A stretch of DNA of 50,462 nucleotides from a virus: IMG/VR virus record IMGVR_UViG_3300035670_000309, positions 1 through 50,462 of that record; one strand, 5' to 3'. Below are positions 3,107 to 14,819 of the stretch, piece after piece (the stretch's first letter is position 1; every line of letters starts with the position of its first letter). The position numbers were made by a program, and so were the translations under genes. A model generated the notes under the pieces. It saw only the letters and a list, made by a program, of their open reading frames with translations. It did no database searches and was not told the origin of the DNA.

Positions 3107-3519
3107 GCCTGCGTTGCCTCAAAGTCGTCGGGTCCGCGCTCGGTCGTTTGCAACAGAGTAACGCCTCCCACCGCCTCGTTGATATAGTCGGACCGCAGTA
3201 GCCGGAAATAACGGCCATCGAGCGAGACCCAAGTTTCAGACGCATTGATGGGTTCAAGATCTGGATCGCGCCTGATGTAAAACAGATGTGTCGCCCCATC
3301 CTCAATGTTGATTCCCATCACGCGGGCAACGCCCTGACCAACGCCAGCGACGGTCTGCACCGCTGCCCAACGTTCAGAGATCGGGACGAAATTATAGACA
3401 GGCTCCCCTCCGCCAATAGGCGTATAGGTGTTATCGCGCCGCAAAAGGCTAATGCGCCGGTCCATCGTTCCGGCGCAAATCTTGGGGCGAGGGACGTTGA
3501 TCGTTTTGCAAGTGGTCAT
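3103..3519 (-). CDS. Head closure (stopper) protein, SPP1 gp16/HK97 gp7-like
   Basis: A 138-residue small beta-barrel protein. The region from MDRRISLLRR through ERWAAVQTV and YFRLLRSDYIN matches the Phage_H_T_join family, which plugs the portal-connector channel after DNA packaging. The start is placed at ATG 3519 (MTTCKTINVP), because it overlaps the connector stop codon as ATGA. An in-frame start 36 bases upstream would need an unnecessary overlap. It follows the connector gene, as in HK97 and SPP1. Confidence 0.8.
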   Translation of the reverse strand: MTTCKTINVPRPKICAGTMDRRISLLRRDNTYTPIGGGEPVYNFVPISERWAAVQTVAGVGQGVARVMGINIEDGATHLFYIRRDPDLEPINASETWVSLDGRYFRLLRSDYINEAVGGVTLLQTTERGPDDFEATQA

Positions 3520-4100
3520 GCAAAAGCCCTCATGATTCTTTCGCCTCCCAGCCAAGGCTTCAGGTCAAGCCCGCGTTCGTCCGCGCAATCGCCGCGATTG
3601 CCGTACATATTCAGGACCAGAGCCTTGATAGCGGTGCGGTAAACCTGCGGTACGTTCGCAACGCCAAAGCCTGCGGTAAACTCAACCTGAATTTCCCAGT
3701 CGGTGCGGCTGATCCAATCCACGTATTGAGACGACGAAAACAGCACACGGGCATAGCCGGGCCGCCGCTTGACCGTGGTATTTGTCACAGGCTGAAGCGC
3801 CGATCCGGTCCAGACGTTCACAGACTGCACAGACCGGAAAGGGCTGCGCTGAAGCTCAACGAAAGGCCAGTTTTCGCCGGTAATCCCGAGGCTGTCAAAA
3901 TGTCCCCTCGCCGTGATCGTGCGCAGGGTCCGGCCCGTGTAGTCCTCGACATGGCTCTCAGCGGTCGCCAGCAGATCGGCAATCAGCGCATCATCTGCGT
4001 TCGTGTCAATCCGTGCGTAGAGCTTGAAATCGGCAACACTCACAATGTCGCCAGCTTCAACCGTGAGGGTTTCATACCAAGAGGCCGGAACGTTTGCCAT
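3516..4100 (-). CDS. Head-tail connector (phiE125 gp8/HK97 gp6-like)
   Basis: A 194-residue protein. Residues 20-60 have the helical pattern of the gp6-like family (VADFKLYARID..DDALIADLL..AESHVEDYTGR). The middle has FVELQRSPFRSVQSV and a hydrophobic strand W-E-I-Q-V-E-F, and the C-terminus has helices (YRTAIKALVLNMYGNRG). Such proteins form the first ring under the portal. It lies downstream of the capsid genes and overlaps the stopper gene. Confidence in the family is high; the exact subfamily is less certain. Confidence 0.85.
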   Translation of the reverse strand: MANVPASWYETLTVEAGDIVSVADFKLYARIDTNADDALIADLLATAESHVEDYTGRTLRTITARGHFDSLGITGENWPFVELQRSPFRSVQSVNVWTGSALQPVTNTTVKRRPGYARVLFSSSQYVDWISRTDWEIQVEFTAGFGVANVPQVYRTAIKALVLNMYGNRGDCADERGLDLKPWLGGERIMRAFA

Positions 4101-4400
4101 TTAGAAAGCCGCCTTGAAGTCTGCGAACATCTTTTCAACGCTCTTGCGCTTGTCCAGCTTTACGCCGAAGCCAGAGGCGTAGGAGTCCAGATCGTCCTTG
4201 CCAAGCTCAGACGCAAATTCGAAGTCTGGCGCATCCTCATGCCGTTCATTAGCCTCTGAAGCGACAGATTCAGCATCGCCAATCCATCCGCAGGCCTCAA
4301 GCTGGCTCAATTCAGCATCGGAAAGGCCGTCAATGCCCCGGATATCGACAATCCGCAGCCCGTTGAACGCGAAAAGACCATTTTTCAACAGCTTTTTCAT
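4101..4400 (-). CDS. Small head-operon protein with SAP/HeH-like C-terminus
   Basis: A 99-residue acidic protein. The N-terminus (LFAFNGLRIVDIRGIDGLSDAE) is a short globular segment. The C-terminal 30 residues (DLDSYASGFGVKLDKRKS then a basic helix) resemble the short helix-extension-helix motifs seen at the ends of small capsid-region proteins. It starts one base after the connector in gene order, so it is probably virion-associated, but no function is known to me. It sits just after a UUCG-type hairpin. Confidence 0.6.
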   Translation of the reverse strand: MKKLLKNGLFAFNGLRIVDIRGIDGLSDAELSQLEACGWIGDAESVASEANERHEDAPDFEFASELGKDDLDSYASGFGVKLDKRKSVEKMFADFKAAF

Positions 4401-4420: not shown

Positions 4421-4438
4421 CGGGGGCCGAAGCCCCCG
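4421..4438 (-). terminator. UUCG hairpin downstream of the Tad2-like gene
   Basis: On the minus strand a 7-bp GC stem (CGGGGGC/GCCCCCG) closes a TTCG tetraloop and is followed by TCTTTCT. It is an intrinsic terminator or attenuator of moderate strength, 7 bases after the Tad2-like stop codon. A near-identical hairpin lies at 4999-5018 on the other side of the gene. Confidence 0.6.
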
Positions 4439-4444
4439 CCCGGA

Positions 4445-4975
4445 TCAGGAAACGATCTTCCAGTCTTCGGCCAGCATATCGGTCTGAGAGGCCAGCCAGC
4501 CCACAACCATAGAGCCGTCGGCCGCCTTCATGTCGATGTGACCGCTGATGATAAATGCGTCATCTGCCCCCATGCCCATTTCGTCAGCCATGGACTTGTA
4601 CGGGGTGTTGGGGCGCAAAACTCCAGCTTTCAAATTCGACCCCGGAACAAGAAAAATGAACATCCCCTTTCCGTTCCATCCTTCGCGGGCAACGCGGAAT
4701 CCCTTTTTGATAGCTTCTAGCGCAAGCCCGAAGGTCATCCCGGTCACAGGCCGATAGGCGGCTTCAAACTGTTCGGCAGGTGACCAAGAGATATAGCCAT
4801 CGAACCCCGGATGATTGGGCTTTCCTCCATCAAGATATTCGACGAGATATCCCGCGTCCGCACCGTCTTCGTCAGCCGGAAGGGACCATCCACGCAGGTC
4901 GTTATAGGCCTGCCGGGTAATCGGATAAGCCTTCACCTGCTTGGTTCCAATGTACGTTTTCGAGCCGTCAATCAT
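4445..4975 (-). CDS. Tad2-like (DUF2829) putative anti-Thoeris protein with N-terminal extension
   Basis: A 176-residue protein in two parts. Residues about 80-176 match the DUF2829/Tad2 family: MTFGLALEAIKKGFRVAREGW, NGKGMFIFLVPGS, a ..YKSMADEMG segment, DAFIISGHIDMKAADG..VVGWLASQTDMLAEDW and a short C-terminus. Tad2 proteins of phages bind the cyclic ADP-ribose signal made by the Thoeris ThsB enzyme and so block that defence. Residues 1-78 are a second domain (GYLVEYLDGGKPNHPG, YISWSPAEQFEAAYRP) often found beside such domains in phage proteins. The gene lies in the head operon between two matching hairpins, like a moron. Family is seen in the sequence; anti-Thoeris activity here is inferred. 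Confidence 0.8.
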   Translation of the reverse strand: MIDGSKTYIGTKQVKAYPITRQAYNDLRGWSLPADEDGADAGYLVEYLDGGKPNHPGFDGYISWSPAEQFEAAYRPVTGMTFGLALEAIKKGFRVAREGWNGKGMFIFLVPGSNLKAGVLRPNTPYKSMADEMGMGADDAFIISGHIDMKAADGSMVVGWLASQTDMLAEDWKIVS

Positions 4976-4998: not shown

Positions 4999-5018
4999 GC
5001 GGGGGCCGAAACCCCCGC
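4999..5018 (-). terminator. GC hairpin upstream of the Tad2-like gene
   Basis: A 7-bp stem GCGGGGG/CCCCCGC with a 6-base loop containing TTCG, between the decoration-like gene and the Tad2-like gene. It lacks a T-run on the minus strand, so it may be an attenuator, an mRNA-stabilising hairpin or a boundary left by insertion. It is nearly the same sequence as the hairpin at 4421-4438. Confidence 0.5.
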
Positions 5019-5028
5019 AGTTAGCACA

Positions 5029-5454
5029 TTACTGCGGCAGGCACTCGGAAGAACGCGCACACAGAACTGAAATGGTAGCGCCGGAAGTCACGCCGGTAGA
5101 AACGACAGACGCACGAATGTAACGCTTGTCGCCGCAAATCACGCCCACCTTCAGGAACTCGCCGCCTGATGCGGTGGCGGCAGTAATGCCGGTAGTCACC
5201 GGGTTAGCGCCGGTAGTGACCAGCAGGTTAGCAGCCGGAACAGCCACCGCATCGGACAGGGCCGAGTTATCGCCCCACTCCAAAAGCAGCTTATAGGTCC
5301 CGTCGGTACGCGCCGGGCACCCCATGAAATAGGTGATGCCCATTTCAAACTGCGCGGTGTCGAGGATCGCGCCCGCAGTGGTGGTGTTGGTGGTGATGGC
5401 ACCCGAAGACGACAAGGCCAGGCCGAGAAGGTCAACAGTCGAAACAATAGCCAT
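5029..5454 (-). CDS. Putative capsid decoration/cement protein
   Basis: A 141-residue protein directly after the major capsid gene (12-base gap). It is rich in Ala, Thr, Gly and Ser, begins MAIVSTVDLLGLALSSSGAI and has beta-strand patterns such as YKLLLEWGDNSALSDAVAVP and FLKVGVICGDKRYIRASV. This composition and position match Bbp16-type cement proteins, which bind the outside of the expanded capsid. No diagnostic motif is visible, so a tail-fibre-like or spike role cannot be excluded. Confidence 0.65.
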   Translation of the reverse strand: MAIVSTVDLLGLALSSSGAITTNTTTAGAILDTAQFEMGITYFMGCPARTDGTYKLLLEWGDNSALSDAVAVPAANLLVTTGANPVTTGITAATASGGEFLKVGVICGDKRYIRASVVSTGVTSGATISVLCARSSECLPQ

Positions 5455-5466
5455 TGTCTGCGCTCC

Positions 5467-6756
5467 TTACGCCTTGATCTTCAGGATTTTGCCAGCCGCA
5501 TAGTCCATCACCGCGCCGCCGGTGCGCTTTGTGGTGTAGAACTTAATGTACGGCTTAGAGGTGTACATGTCGCGAATCACGCGAATGTCGAACCGATCCA
5601 CGACGGTGTAGAACCGCTGGAAGTCGGCAACGACCATCGCCAGAGCGTTGGCAGCCACGGACGGGATGTCGGACATGAACACGACGCGGGAGCCCAGCAG
5701 GATCTTCTCGCCGCCTTCAGACAGGACGCGCGGGTTCAGCAGGTATTCGCCGTTCGTCGCCTTCAACTGCATCACCTTGGTGAAGGTCGAACGCTGCATA
5801 CCGAACGTGCTGTTGTATTGGTAGTCTTCCAGCAGGGTATTGTGCAGCGCAATCACGTCATCAGCGGTGAAATCGCCGGAGGTGGAAGAGGTGACCTGCT
5901 CCACAGCATCGCGCTGATAGACGCCCGGCGAAGACCACGCCGCATAGGACAGGAAGCCGCGCGGCTTGGCCGAACCGTCACCGACGACAAACGAGGTGTT
6001 TTCGGTGCGGCCAATCTTTTCAGCCACGCGACGAACCAGCCAGCCCTCAATATCGAAACCGGCATCATCGATCAGGCGCTGAGTAACCTGCGGCTGCGCG
6101 TAGATTTCATGAACCGGGATCTTGGTCAGGCCGATGTTCGGAGTGTCGGTGGTCGGGCGTGCCGAAATTTCACCAACCCAGCCACATTCTGCCTGCTGGT
6201 CATCAAGGACCATCTCGAAAACATCGCTGGTGGTGGTCTGCACATCGGCAACCAGACGGACCGGCGAGGTTTCGAAAATGCGGGTGATCATGCGGTTCGA
6301 ACGGTCAGCAGTGACCAGATAGCCCCCGTTCGGATTGGAGCCTTCCAGAAGATCCTTCTTCTGCATTTCCAGACGGGTCGGATCAGCGCCGAAGGTGTTT
6401 TTCTGCAAGAAAGCATCGATCTGGGAGCGCACAACCTCTTCCGGCATCGCGTCGCCCTTGCGCAGGTAGCGGGCGAAGTGCTGAGAAGCGTCGCGGTCAA
6501 AGCCTTTACCGGCCACGCCAGAACGCGCAAATTCCGCTTCCAGATCTTCCATGCGCTTCTGCATGGCGTCAACGGCTGCGGCCTTCTGCTTGATTTCCTG
6601 AGTGGCGGCCAGAGCGTCGGTCGCATCCTTGGCGGCCTTGTCGATCATGTCCTTATCGATGACGTCCAGCTTAGACTTCATCTCGGTAATGCGGCCCTGA
6701 ACGGCCTCGATACCCTTAACAGCAGTCTCAAGCTGCTGCGAAATGTTGTCGGTCAT
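5467..6756 (-). CDS. Major capsid protein, HK97 fold
   Basis: A 429-residue protein. Residues 1-90 are a helical charged delta domain typical of HK97 scaffolds (QLETAVKGIEAVQGRITEMK and onward). The mature part begins near GKGFDRDASQHFARYLRKGD and has the usual N-arm, the conserved DLLEGSNPNGGYLV strand, the E-loop/P-domain region and a C-terminal DIRVIRDMYTSKPYIKFYTT segment. The delta domain is expected to be cut off by the protease encoded just upstream. Length and order are normal for the family. Confidence 0.95.
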   Translation of the reverse strand: MTDNISQQLETAVKGIEAVQGRITEMKSKLDVIDKDMIDKAAKDATDALAATQEIKQKAAAVDAMQKRMEDLEAEFARSGVAGKGFDRDASQHFARYLRKGDAMPEEVVRSQIDAFLQKNTFGADPTRLEMQKKDLLEGSNPNGGYLVTADRSNRMITRIFETSPVRLVADVQTTTSDVFEMVLDDQQAECGWVGEISARPTTDTPNIGLTKIPVHEIYAQPQVTQRLIDDAGFDIEGWLVRRVAEKIGRTENTSFVVGDGSAKPRGFLSYAAWSSPGVYQRDAVEQVTSSTSGDFTADDVIALHNTLLEDYQYNSTFGMQRSTFTKVMQLKATNGEYLLNPRVLSEGGEKILLGSRVVFMSDIPSVAANALAMVVADFQRFYTVVDRFDIRVIRDMYTSKPYIKFYTTKRTGGAVMDYAAGKILKIKA

Positions 6757-13326: not shown

Positions 13327-13542
13327 CTACTTAGCGCCGGTGATAGGATCTTTTTTCGAGGCGCTTTCAGCCCGCGCAATTTCCAACGCCAGACCGTTAG
13401 CGGCAACAACACCCAGCCCGACATAGCCCAGCTTAGAGGCATCTTCCGGCGCAATATTACCATCAACAGAGGCATTCAGAACCCGGTGCAGGGTGTTCGC
13501 AACGTCGCGGGTCTGGTCGTGCATTTCCCTGAAATCGTTCAT
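13327..13542 (-). CDS. Small protein coupled to the TnpB-like gene
   Basis: A 71-residue protein, MNDFREMHDQTRDVANTLHR followed by a small-residue helix (GYVGLGVVAANGLALEIARA). Its ATG overlaps the stop of the TnpB-like gene as ATGA, so the two are almost surely co-translated. No family was recognised. The middle hydrophobic stretch is too polar for a clear membrane helix. A GGGCCG-ATGT-CCGGCCC hairpin without a T-run lies about 40 bases past its stop. It is the last gene of the leftward early block. Confidence 0.6.
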   Translation of the reverse strand: MNDFREMHDQTRDVANTLHRVLNASVDGNIAPEDASKLGYVGLGVVAANGLALEIARAESASKKDPITGAK

Positions 13543-14819
13543 TTCGCCTTTTCCTTTCGCATCAGCTTCTTTGCCACTTTGGCTGTTTTGACAATCTCGT
13601 TGCCAAGTTCGACAACGTGAGCGGTCTTTTTCTCTGCCACGGTGCCGCCTGCCTCCGTGATTTTGTCTTTAATCAGCCCGACGAACATCGCGGGAGCCAT
13701 GCTCAAGACAAAACGGTTAAACCCTGCTTTCCACTTCACCTTTGCGCCGTGTTCTTTCCGATCACCGGCACCGGTCGCCGTCGCATCCTTGATGCTTTTC
13801 GGCTGGTAGATCGTCACTTCGCCAAACTCGCGGGCGATAGCTGCTGACAGATTATGCAGGCGGTTGGCCCGCTGGTTAGCCTGTCGCGCCTCAAGCCGCG
13901 CCTTCATGGTCCGCAGCTTTTTATAGCGGTTGCTGCCCCGCTTGCACCGCGCCATGGCCTGCTGGATTTGGCCCACGCAGTCAACTTCTTCTCTGGAATT
14001 CCGCAACTCACTGTCGTCACCCTGCGCTTCATGGGCTTCCGCAGGCATCCCGACCACAGCATAGACCACTACGTTCTTGTCGTCACCCCGCATTTCCTGG
14101 GCTTCCGTAGGAGCTTCCCCGTTAAAGCCCTGAAAGTTAAGGGTGATTCGTCCGTCAGAAGCGATAGAAACCGCAACCTCAGGACCGGCGAGACATTCGC
14201 CGTCAACGATCTTCGCAAGCTGCGTCATCAGGTCAAGCCCGATCACGCCCTTCCGAGTCCCAGCCACACGCCGGGATTCTGTTTCAACCGCGACGGAAAG
14301 AAACCACTCTCCGCCACGGTAAAGAATTTCACCGTTCTTGACCGTCCCACCATTCGGCAGGCATCCGCGCATTTTGATCCATCCCTCAATAGACTGGATC
14401 CGAACACGGCCTTTTTTCTCCCCAATTTCGCAGTCCCATCCAGCCTTTGGTTTTCCTAGCGGGAATCCTGAGTAGTACTCTGAACCTTGGTAGCGAGGAA
14501 ATCCAGACGACGCTCCATCTCCTTTTTTGGCGCGAGCAAAGAAAGCTTTATACGCTTCATCAAGGCGCTTCGCCGTCCCGTTCATCGACGCTGAACCTAG
14601 AGCTTTGTAATCATGGTCTACGGCACGAAGCTTAGTGTTGTTGGCAGTCTGATCGAAATACGTAAGGCTCTTTCCACACCGTTCGAAGGCATCAATCCGT
14701 TGCTCCAGAAGAGCATTATACAGGCGGCAATGCAGACTCCGCACCACATCAAGCCGGGCGGCTTGCGTCGCATTCGGATACAGCTTGAAGTTATAGCGAC
14801 GAATAATCATCGCGGCCAC
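13539..14819 (-). CDS. TnpB-like protein lacking RuvC-II acid, zinc ribbon and RuvC-III
   Basis: A 426-residue protein related to IS200/IS605 OrfB. The N-terminal half is well kept: RRYNFKLYPNATQAARLD, LYNALLEQRIDAFERCG, LDEAYKAFFARAKKGDGAS and WFLSVAVETESRR. RuvC-I is present as VIGLDLMTQLAKIVDGE with its Asp. An insert of about 60 residues with an internal duplication follows, then the bridge-like helices QQAMARCKRGSNRYKKLR and NRLHNLSAAIAREFGEVTIY. The expected Glu of RuvC-II is replaced (..TIYQPKSIK), and no CxxC zinc ribbon or RuvC-III Asp follows. This suggests an RNA-guided-type binder without nuclease activity. It starts with GTG 14819 or ATG 14810. No IS ends were seen, so it looks resident. 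Confidence 0.8.
   Translation of the reverse strand: MAAMIIRRYNFKLYPNATQAARLDVVRSLHCRLYNALLEQRIDAFERCGKSLTYFDQTANNTKLRAVDHDYKALGSASMNGTAKRLDEAYKAFFARAKKGDGASSGFPRYQGSEYYSGFPLGKPKAGWDCEIGEKKGRVRIQSIEGWIKMRGCLPNGGTVKNGEILYRGGEWFLSVAVETESRRVAGTRKGVIGLDLMTQLAKIVDGECLAGPEVAVSIASDGRITLNFQGFNGEAPTEAQEMRGDDKNVVVYAVVGMPAEAHEAQGDDSELRNSREEVDCVGQIQQAMARCKRGSNRYKKLRTMKARLEARQANQRANRLHNLSAAIAREFGEVTIYQPKSIKDATATGAGDRKEHGAKVKWKAGFNRFVLSMAPAMFVGLIKDKITEAGGTVAEKKTAHVVELGNEIVKTAKVAKKLMRKEKAK

Follow-up and report, generated by a model that had tools for sequence, protein, structure and literature searches.

The gene analyzed here probably encodes a two-module phage sponge, in which a C-terminal Tad2 domain is joined to an autonomous N-terminal module that we term NDOM, and the protein is most likely directed against TIR- or cGAS-type signals. 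Profile searches show NDOM sharing an ORF with members of four unrelated families whose counter-defense function has been demonstrated, namely Tad2, Acb2 (Pfam: PF24729), Acb4 (Pfam: PF13876), and RyR/RyDEP (Pfam: PF02026). The Tad2-type activity proposed in the initial annotation is favored by the family model, the predicted fold, and the pocket segments, and we regard the protein as a putative sponge.

Gene Neighborhood

The window is the whole stretch of viral DNA that was analyzed (50,462 nt). The gene begins with an ATG start codon on the minus strand, no strand having been named in the initial annotation, and is surrounded by genes for portal, head morphogenesis, protease, major head, head–tail adaptor, head closure, and Neck1-type proteins (table 1). 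The initial annotation had placed it between decoration and connector genes. The head-gene setting holds, but the upstream gene (5029–5454; 141 aa) matches only phrog_5707, a family of unknown function, which does not establish a decoration protein; a connector gene does lie on the other side, but a 99-aa ORF (4101–4400, minus strand) intervenes. Over its last 32 residues, this ORF resembles the beginning of a family named "minor head protein inhibitor of protease" (2.4e-5), and these residues also match the end of phrog_3259. Farther away, a 426-aa ORF (13539–14819, minus strand) precedes the terminase genes as the strand is read, and its translation, by inspection of the sequence, resembles a TnpB-type (IS200/IS605) nuclease. 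The TerL protein is nearest to those of a Manatee Spring phage and a Paracoccus phage, at 55–56%. No further sponge modules were found elsewhere in the window.

Table 1. Coordinates of the NDOM-Tad2 gene, its modules, and features nearby in the window
Feature	Position	Strand	Basis or remark
Head–tail adaptor	3516..4100	minus	Context gene
UUCG hairpin CGGGGGCTTCGGCCCCCG	4421..4438	minus	Just downstream of the NDOM-Tad2 gene; near-identical to the upstream hairpin
NDOM-Tad2 protein, 176 aa	4445..4975 (stop codon included)	minus	ORF, Pfam, PHROG, and AlphaFold
Tad2 domain, residues 80–175	4451..4738	minus	PF11195, fold, and pocket segments
NDOM, residues 6–76	4748..4960	minus	N-terminal module
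UUCG hairpin CGGGGGTTTCGGCCCCCG	5000..5017	minus	Just upstream of the NDOM-Tad2 gene
Major head protein	5467..6756	minus	Context gene

The two hairpins that bracket the gene are the only matches to this element in 50 kb with three mismatches allowed (shuffled sequences: mean of 0.22 matches, at most 1). Their RNA stems have predicted energies of about −20 to −22 kcal/mol, which GC-rich shuffles nearly equal (z of −1.9 and −1.75), and they were not called as terminators. In the best 8 of 32 records, the DNA that resembles other phages lies entirely within the NDOM-Tad2 gene, and together with the hairpin pair this is compatible with a mobile cassette. The same two observations are consistent with the gene being a moron, as first suggested, but the promoter of its own that such an element would have was not found: searches of the gene returned neither a sigma-70-like promoter nor a minus-strand terminator.

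The C-Terminal Tad2 Domain

The only Pfam family found in the protein is Tad2-like (Pfam: PF11195), which covers residues 80–175 (E of 7.1e-25) with a score of 87.8 bits, above the model cut-off of 25, confirming the assignment of residues 80–176 to DUF2829/Tad2 in the initial annotation. The nearest PDB sequences are HgmTad2/AcrIIA7, AcrIIA7 (9kzr), SptTad2, ModTad2, and SPO1 Tad2. An AlphaFold2 model built from 94 sequences (mean pLDDT of 94.0, pTM of 0.74) contains two confidently predicted folds with a boundary near residue 78, and conservation extends over residues 6–76 or so; the N-terminal part, originally delimited as residues 1–78, is indeed a separate domain. From residue 78 onward the predicted strands and helices of the monomer are those of Tad2. 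All 24 chains retrieved by Foldseek below an E of 0.001 are Tad2 proteins (8kbi at 1.1e-9), and the first VIA-align match is SptTad2 with cGG (8wjd; Z of 13.6, rmsd of 2.5, 98 residues aligned), where rows within 1 of each other count as tied. By both comparisons the model has the Tad2 monomer fold.

The Tad2 pocket has been described as formed by the β1–β2, β3–β4, and β4–α3 loops, strand β4, and helix α3, and binding of cyclic dinucleotides has been attributed to an insert between β2 and β5 (PMC12043709). We mapped these elements onto the model ourselves and compared segments rather than single contact residues. The β1–β2 and β4–α3/α3 segments are identical to those of HgmTad2 at 9/10 and 13/14 positions, likewise to those of SptTad2 at 9/10 and 13/14, and to those of ModTad2 at 10/10 and 8/14. 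The loss of pocket residues that was named at the outset as an argument against a Tad2 function is therefore not seen at the level of segments. The β2–β5 insert is similar in length to those of HgmTad2 and SptTad2, with an identity of only 5/30 and 7/30, respectively. Given that the pocket segments are conserved and the insert has diverged, the predicted pocket more likely binds an ADPR-type signal, and cyclic dinucleotides are possible ligands of the predicted insert.

Sponge activity is established for Acb2, Tad1, and Tad2 (PMC12043709). From the family, the monomer fold, and the pocket segments, we infer that the C-terminal domain would form a Tad2 tetramer that captures the ADP-ribose-type signals of TIR (Thoeris) enzymes. 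An insert of HgmTad2/SptTad2 size may permit cyclic dinucleotides to be trapped as well, such that the effectors would not be triggered.

NDOM and Its Partners

NDOM comprises about 70 residues with the conserved motif YIGTK...PMTRxxYNxxRGW...GYLVEYxDGG...GYISWSPxxxFExAYR, for which there was no Pfam match and no PDB sequence match; its conserved residues include K12, N25, R28, W30, D49, S63, and W64. The combination of NDOM with Tad2 is already known as PHROG 872. This family, whose function is unknown, includes gp49 of phage N4 and covers residues 5–175 of the window protein (E of 8.5e-62), which is a further member; the matches to phrog_9467 and phrog_32732 are confined to the N-terminal part. 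Nor is the extra domain unusual: of 349 matching phage records, 92 span 80% or more of the protein at a single place. We also considered that NDOM might be a decayed Tad2 repeat, its SWSPxxxFExAY stretch looking like GWLASQTDMLAEDW, and rejected this on an hhalign probability of 0.6% over 13 columns.

A query consisting of NDOM only retrieved 80 viral loci. After near-identical ORFs were merged and one edge-truncated NDOM ORF was dropped, 59 ORFs remained, in 48 of which NDOM accompanies Tad2, Acb2, or Acb4; nine others carry PF21825, an uncharacterized hairpin, without any of these, and the last two comprise one ORF with a tail lacking an assignment and one with NDOM alone. When the hairpin alone served as the query, 32 ORFs were obtained; Acb4 or Tad2 is present in 9 and NDOM in 12, and 2 of these contain both. 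Partner-neutral proportions come solely from these two queries; the pooled census mixes loci from Tad2-, Acb2-, hairpin-, and RyR-bearing queries, and its proportions carry no meaning. The hairpin itself was considered as a form of Acb2 and rejected: these hairpins match PF21825 and not PF24729 (T4 Vs.4 matches PF24729 only), no Acb2 chain was retrieved by profile, and the hhalign probability is 0.1%.

The partners found with NDOM in one ORF, RyR and PF21825 included, are confirmed by Pfam above its cut-offs. One ORF combines NDOM with Acb2 (L114; 3.1e-16 to PF24729 and 3.1e-8 to the solved Acb2 p26). Acb4 is found with NDOM above the Pfam cut-off in seven loci (L105, L146, L161, L138, L193, L183, and L182) and in phages Axy13, Philippe, and crAssphage C0521BW15, and one of these ORFs has four modules in the order NDOM-Tad2-Acb4-PF21825 (L193). 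The lead to RyR was a structural match to a protein of Yersinia phage TG1, in which one open frame encodes both RyR (E of 2.3e-11) and NDOM (E of 4e-10); the same pair occurs in Pectobacterium phage Nepra. This association is meaningful because the partners are established immune-signal proteins: 3'3'-cGAMP is reported to be bound by 8/8 purified homologs of Acb4, the PF13876 family (PMC11722364), and the RyR proteins of phages are glycosidases or sponges of Thoeris signals, by which 2'cADPR and 3'cADPR are cleaved or sequestered (PMC13232231).

Other arrangements were encountered in the same searches. RyR appears to be inserted inside NDOM and followed by Acb4 in one three-module ORF, one module being nested (L329:1806–2699, plus strand). 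Fusions above the Pfam cut-off that do not include NDOM are RyR-Acb2 (L319:1995–2621, plus strand) and Acb4-Tad2 (L245:5689–6273, plus strand), and a WDGH (PF25311)-Tad2 fusion gene overlaps an NDOM-PF21825 gene (L057:5420–6064, plus strand). NDOM is followed by further tails in Vibrio phages 1.205O and 1.184A and Rhodoferax phage P26218 (L345:1498–1920, L346:1495–1914, and L306:2879–3421); no Pfam family was recognized in the tails of L345 and L306. PF21825 hairpins also follow approximately 100–250 Pfam-blank residues in four ORFs (L269:1453–2058, L281:1686–2192, L284:519–1010, and L289:1236–2207).

Among 24 isolate phages, which were hand-picked from search matches with divergent ones favored and TG1 added by accession, NDOM is joined to Tad2 in 3, Acb4 in 6, RyR in 2, PF21825 only in 3, and a tail lacking an assignment in 3, and it stands alone in 7. 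The stand-alone genes encode 69–78 aa, some of them without a sponge gene in the stretch fetched. The occurrence of NDOM with Acb2, Acb4, and RyR and as stand-alone genes points to an autonomous module not specific to Tad2 and does not bear out the initial proposal that it alters the ligand or the oligomeric state. Judging from these ORFs, NDOM is a unit that phages join, in variable order, to Tad2, Acb2, Acb4, RyR, or the PF21825 hairpin, or to carry by itself.

Function of NDOM

We favor, with some hesitation, the hypothesis that NDOM itself binds or otherwise handles an immune signal, in which case the protein would cover two kinds of signal. This is preferred over a role in assembly or tethering because the order of the modules is free, NDOM also occurs alone, and all assigned partners except PF21825 act on immune signals. 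Structural comparison is less informative. The predicted NDOM fold is strand–strand–helix–strand–strand–helix (AlphaFold2), and its best rows are DUF1653 (3be3; Z of 4.8, rmsd of 4.4, 59 residues aligned) and SH3/Tudor-like domains (Z of approximately 3), which are at chance level; VIA-align gave no confident match between NDOM and nucleotide-binding folds. A model of NDOM with PF21825 had no PDB match below an E of 0.001, and its VIA-align list was filled by helical hairpins, so NDOM was masked.

A rather unlikely alternative, although the best of those considered, is that NDOM is an adaptor for assembly, avidity, or localization, which would multimerize sponges or anchor them to some structure of the host or the phage, with signal binding left to the partner alone. 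An adaptor would explain why NDOM is common to unrelated sponges in either order and why most copies are fused, mainly to Tad2; its fold is weakly SH3/Tudor/chromo-like (Z of about 3 to 5), and SH3-like folds could equally fit protein-interaction domains. The stand-alone genes speak against this role, as does the degree of conservation: in 94 NDOM-Tad2 proteins, a mostly NDOM-seeded sample that biases the comparison toward NDOM, at least 85% of sequences share one residue at 29 of 68 NDOM columns versus 19 of 96 Tad2 columns, and many of the 29 are polar or aromatic, exceeding what a scaffold needs.

Less probable still is a reading in which the protein acts as an ordinary Tad2 sponge and NDOM is a neutral passenger that recombination has spread among neighboring counter-defense genes. 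Such genes are in fact close at hand. Across 98 distinct NDOM loci, 18 of 190 immediate neighbors bear a sponge module, versus 6 of 771 other genes (odds ratio of 13, p of 5e-9, with loci treated as independent and domain-bearing ORFs given priority in gene picking at every position), and end-to-end fusion would be easy. In Escherichia coli phage N4 the gene for gp48, a member of the Acb4 family (PF13876, 8.8e-35), overlaps that for the NDOM-Tad2 protein gp49 (L302, 3606–4459). A tree of 176 NDOM sequences, built on a short domain of approximately 70 residues, requires at least 41 changes of partner type compared with a mean of 59.2 for shuffled labels; on this tree partner type is partly inherited and often switched. 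Against the passenger reading, the conservation of NDOM equals or exceeds that of the Tad2 core (mean pairwise identities of 0.61 for NDOM, 0.45 for Tad2, and 0.53 for its core in the same 94 mostly NDOM-seeded proteins), and it persists alone, whereas a passenger would be expected to decay.

Position among Head Genes

Its place between head genes raises the question of whether the Tad2 domain has been recruited to a role in the virion or in head assembly, and the labels given to stand-alone NDOM genes in two records (L334, Kc283; L335, JELG-KS1) are "Dec protein" and "putative decoration protein." We consider this role very improbable given the intact pocket segments and the many other sites of homologs: next to vRNAP in N4, near lysis genes in Kapi1, and beside DNA primase in Nepra, MIF8, and Kc283, where NDOM-RyR in Nepra occupies the same site as NDOM alone in Kc283 and MIF8. 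A fixed head-operon location of NDOM is not supported, since PHROGs assigned to 130 of 210 neighbor proteins gave mixed functions, only a few being head or packaging proteins. The position may instead mean that the putative sponge is made together with the head protein. Such coexpression would be apt by analogy with Staphylococcus aureus, in which the major head protein acts as the trigger of Thoeris (PMC11312562).

The remotest alternative is an anti-CRISPR of the AcrIIA7 type acting on Cas9, suggested by the nearest PDB titles ("AcrIIA7" or "Inhibitor of Type II CRISPR-Cas system") and by homologs named "anti-CRISPR protein" in several phage records, but according to PDB titles this very protein has been solved, under the name HgmTad2, with 1',2'-cADPR and cGG, and the name AcrIIA7 was given before the sponge function became known. 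The NDOM-Tad2 genes of other records bear that "anti-CRISPR protein" label, which is probably misleading, as are the two decoration labels.

A Possible Combinatorial Toolkit

Sponges have so far been found family by family, through biochemical or genetic screens. Having traveled with four unrelated established anti-signal families, NDOM works as a sequence beacon, which predicts action on immune signals for NDOM itself, for PF21825, and for the tails in P26218, 1.184A, and 1.205O; these tails, which lack a Pfam family, are candidates for further counter-defense domains. It is conceivable, and we put it forward with caution, that NDOM and PF21825 each represent an undescribed family of domains that sponge up or process immune signals. 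Together with Tad2, Acb2, Acb4, and RyR they would form a combinatorial toolkit, fused, nested, and shuffled into polyvalent proteins of up to four modules per ORF. If so, single polyvalent proteins would block several nucleotide-signal defenses at once, the window gene being a two-module example. The data suggest that phages build multi-signal inhibitors through domain shuffling. The available account of Acb4 mentions extensions on some homologs without assigning them (PMC11722364), and domain shuffling could explain these.

In titles and abstract openings we found no description of NDOM or PF21825 as a counter-defense domain, which does not establish absence in print, and no account linking four anti-signal families via one mobile domain, although likely relevant papers lie outside this material. 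N4 is a classic E. coli phage with an Acb4 gene and an NDOM-Tad2 gene, and the prediction is therefore testable in a standard laboratory system, with gp48 and gp49 as a ready model for paired sponges.

Comparison with Known Systems

The closest known systems are HgmTad2/AcrIIA7 (8kbi, 8kbj, and 8kbk) and SptTad2 (8wjd), which resemble the window protein in Tad2 domain, fold, pocket segments, and insert length. They differ in that the PDB matches cover residues 79–175 only, the insert sequence has diverged, and the window protein adds NDOM. Phage N4 gp49 and PHROG 872 share the complete NDOM-Tad2 architecture; gp49 overlaps a gene of the Acb4 family, whereas the window gene stands alone among head genes. 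Acb4 proteins are likewise phage sponges, some of which carry NDOM, PF21825, or both within one ORF, but their fold is unrelated and their targets are the cyclic dinucleotides of CBASS. RyDEP is also an anti-Thoeris protein and is joined to the same NDOM in TG1 and Nepra, but it has an unrelated fold and is a glycosidase or sponge. Acb2 is a sponge as well, in this case a helical hexamer, and its NDOM fusion has the module order reversed, with NDOM at the C-terminus of Acb2.
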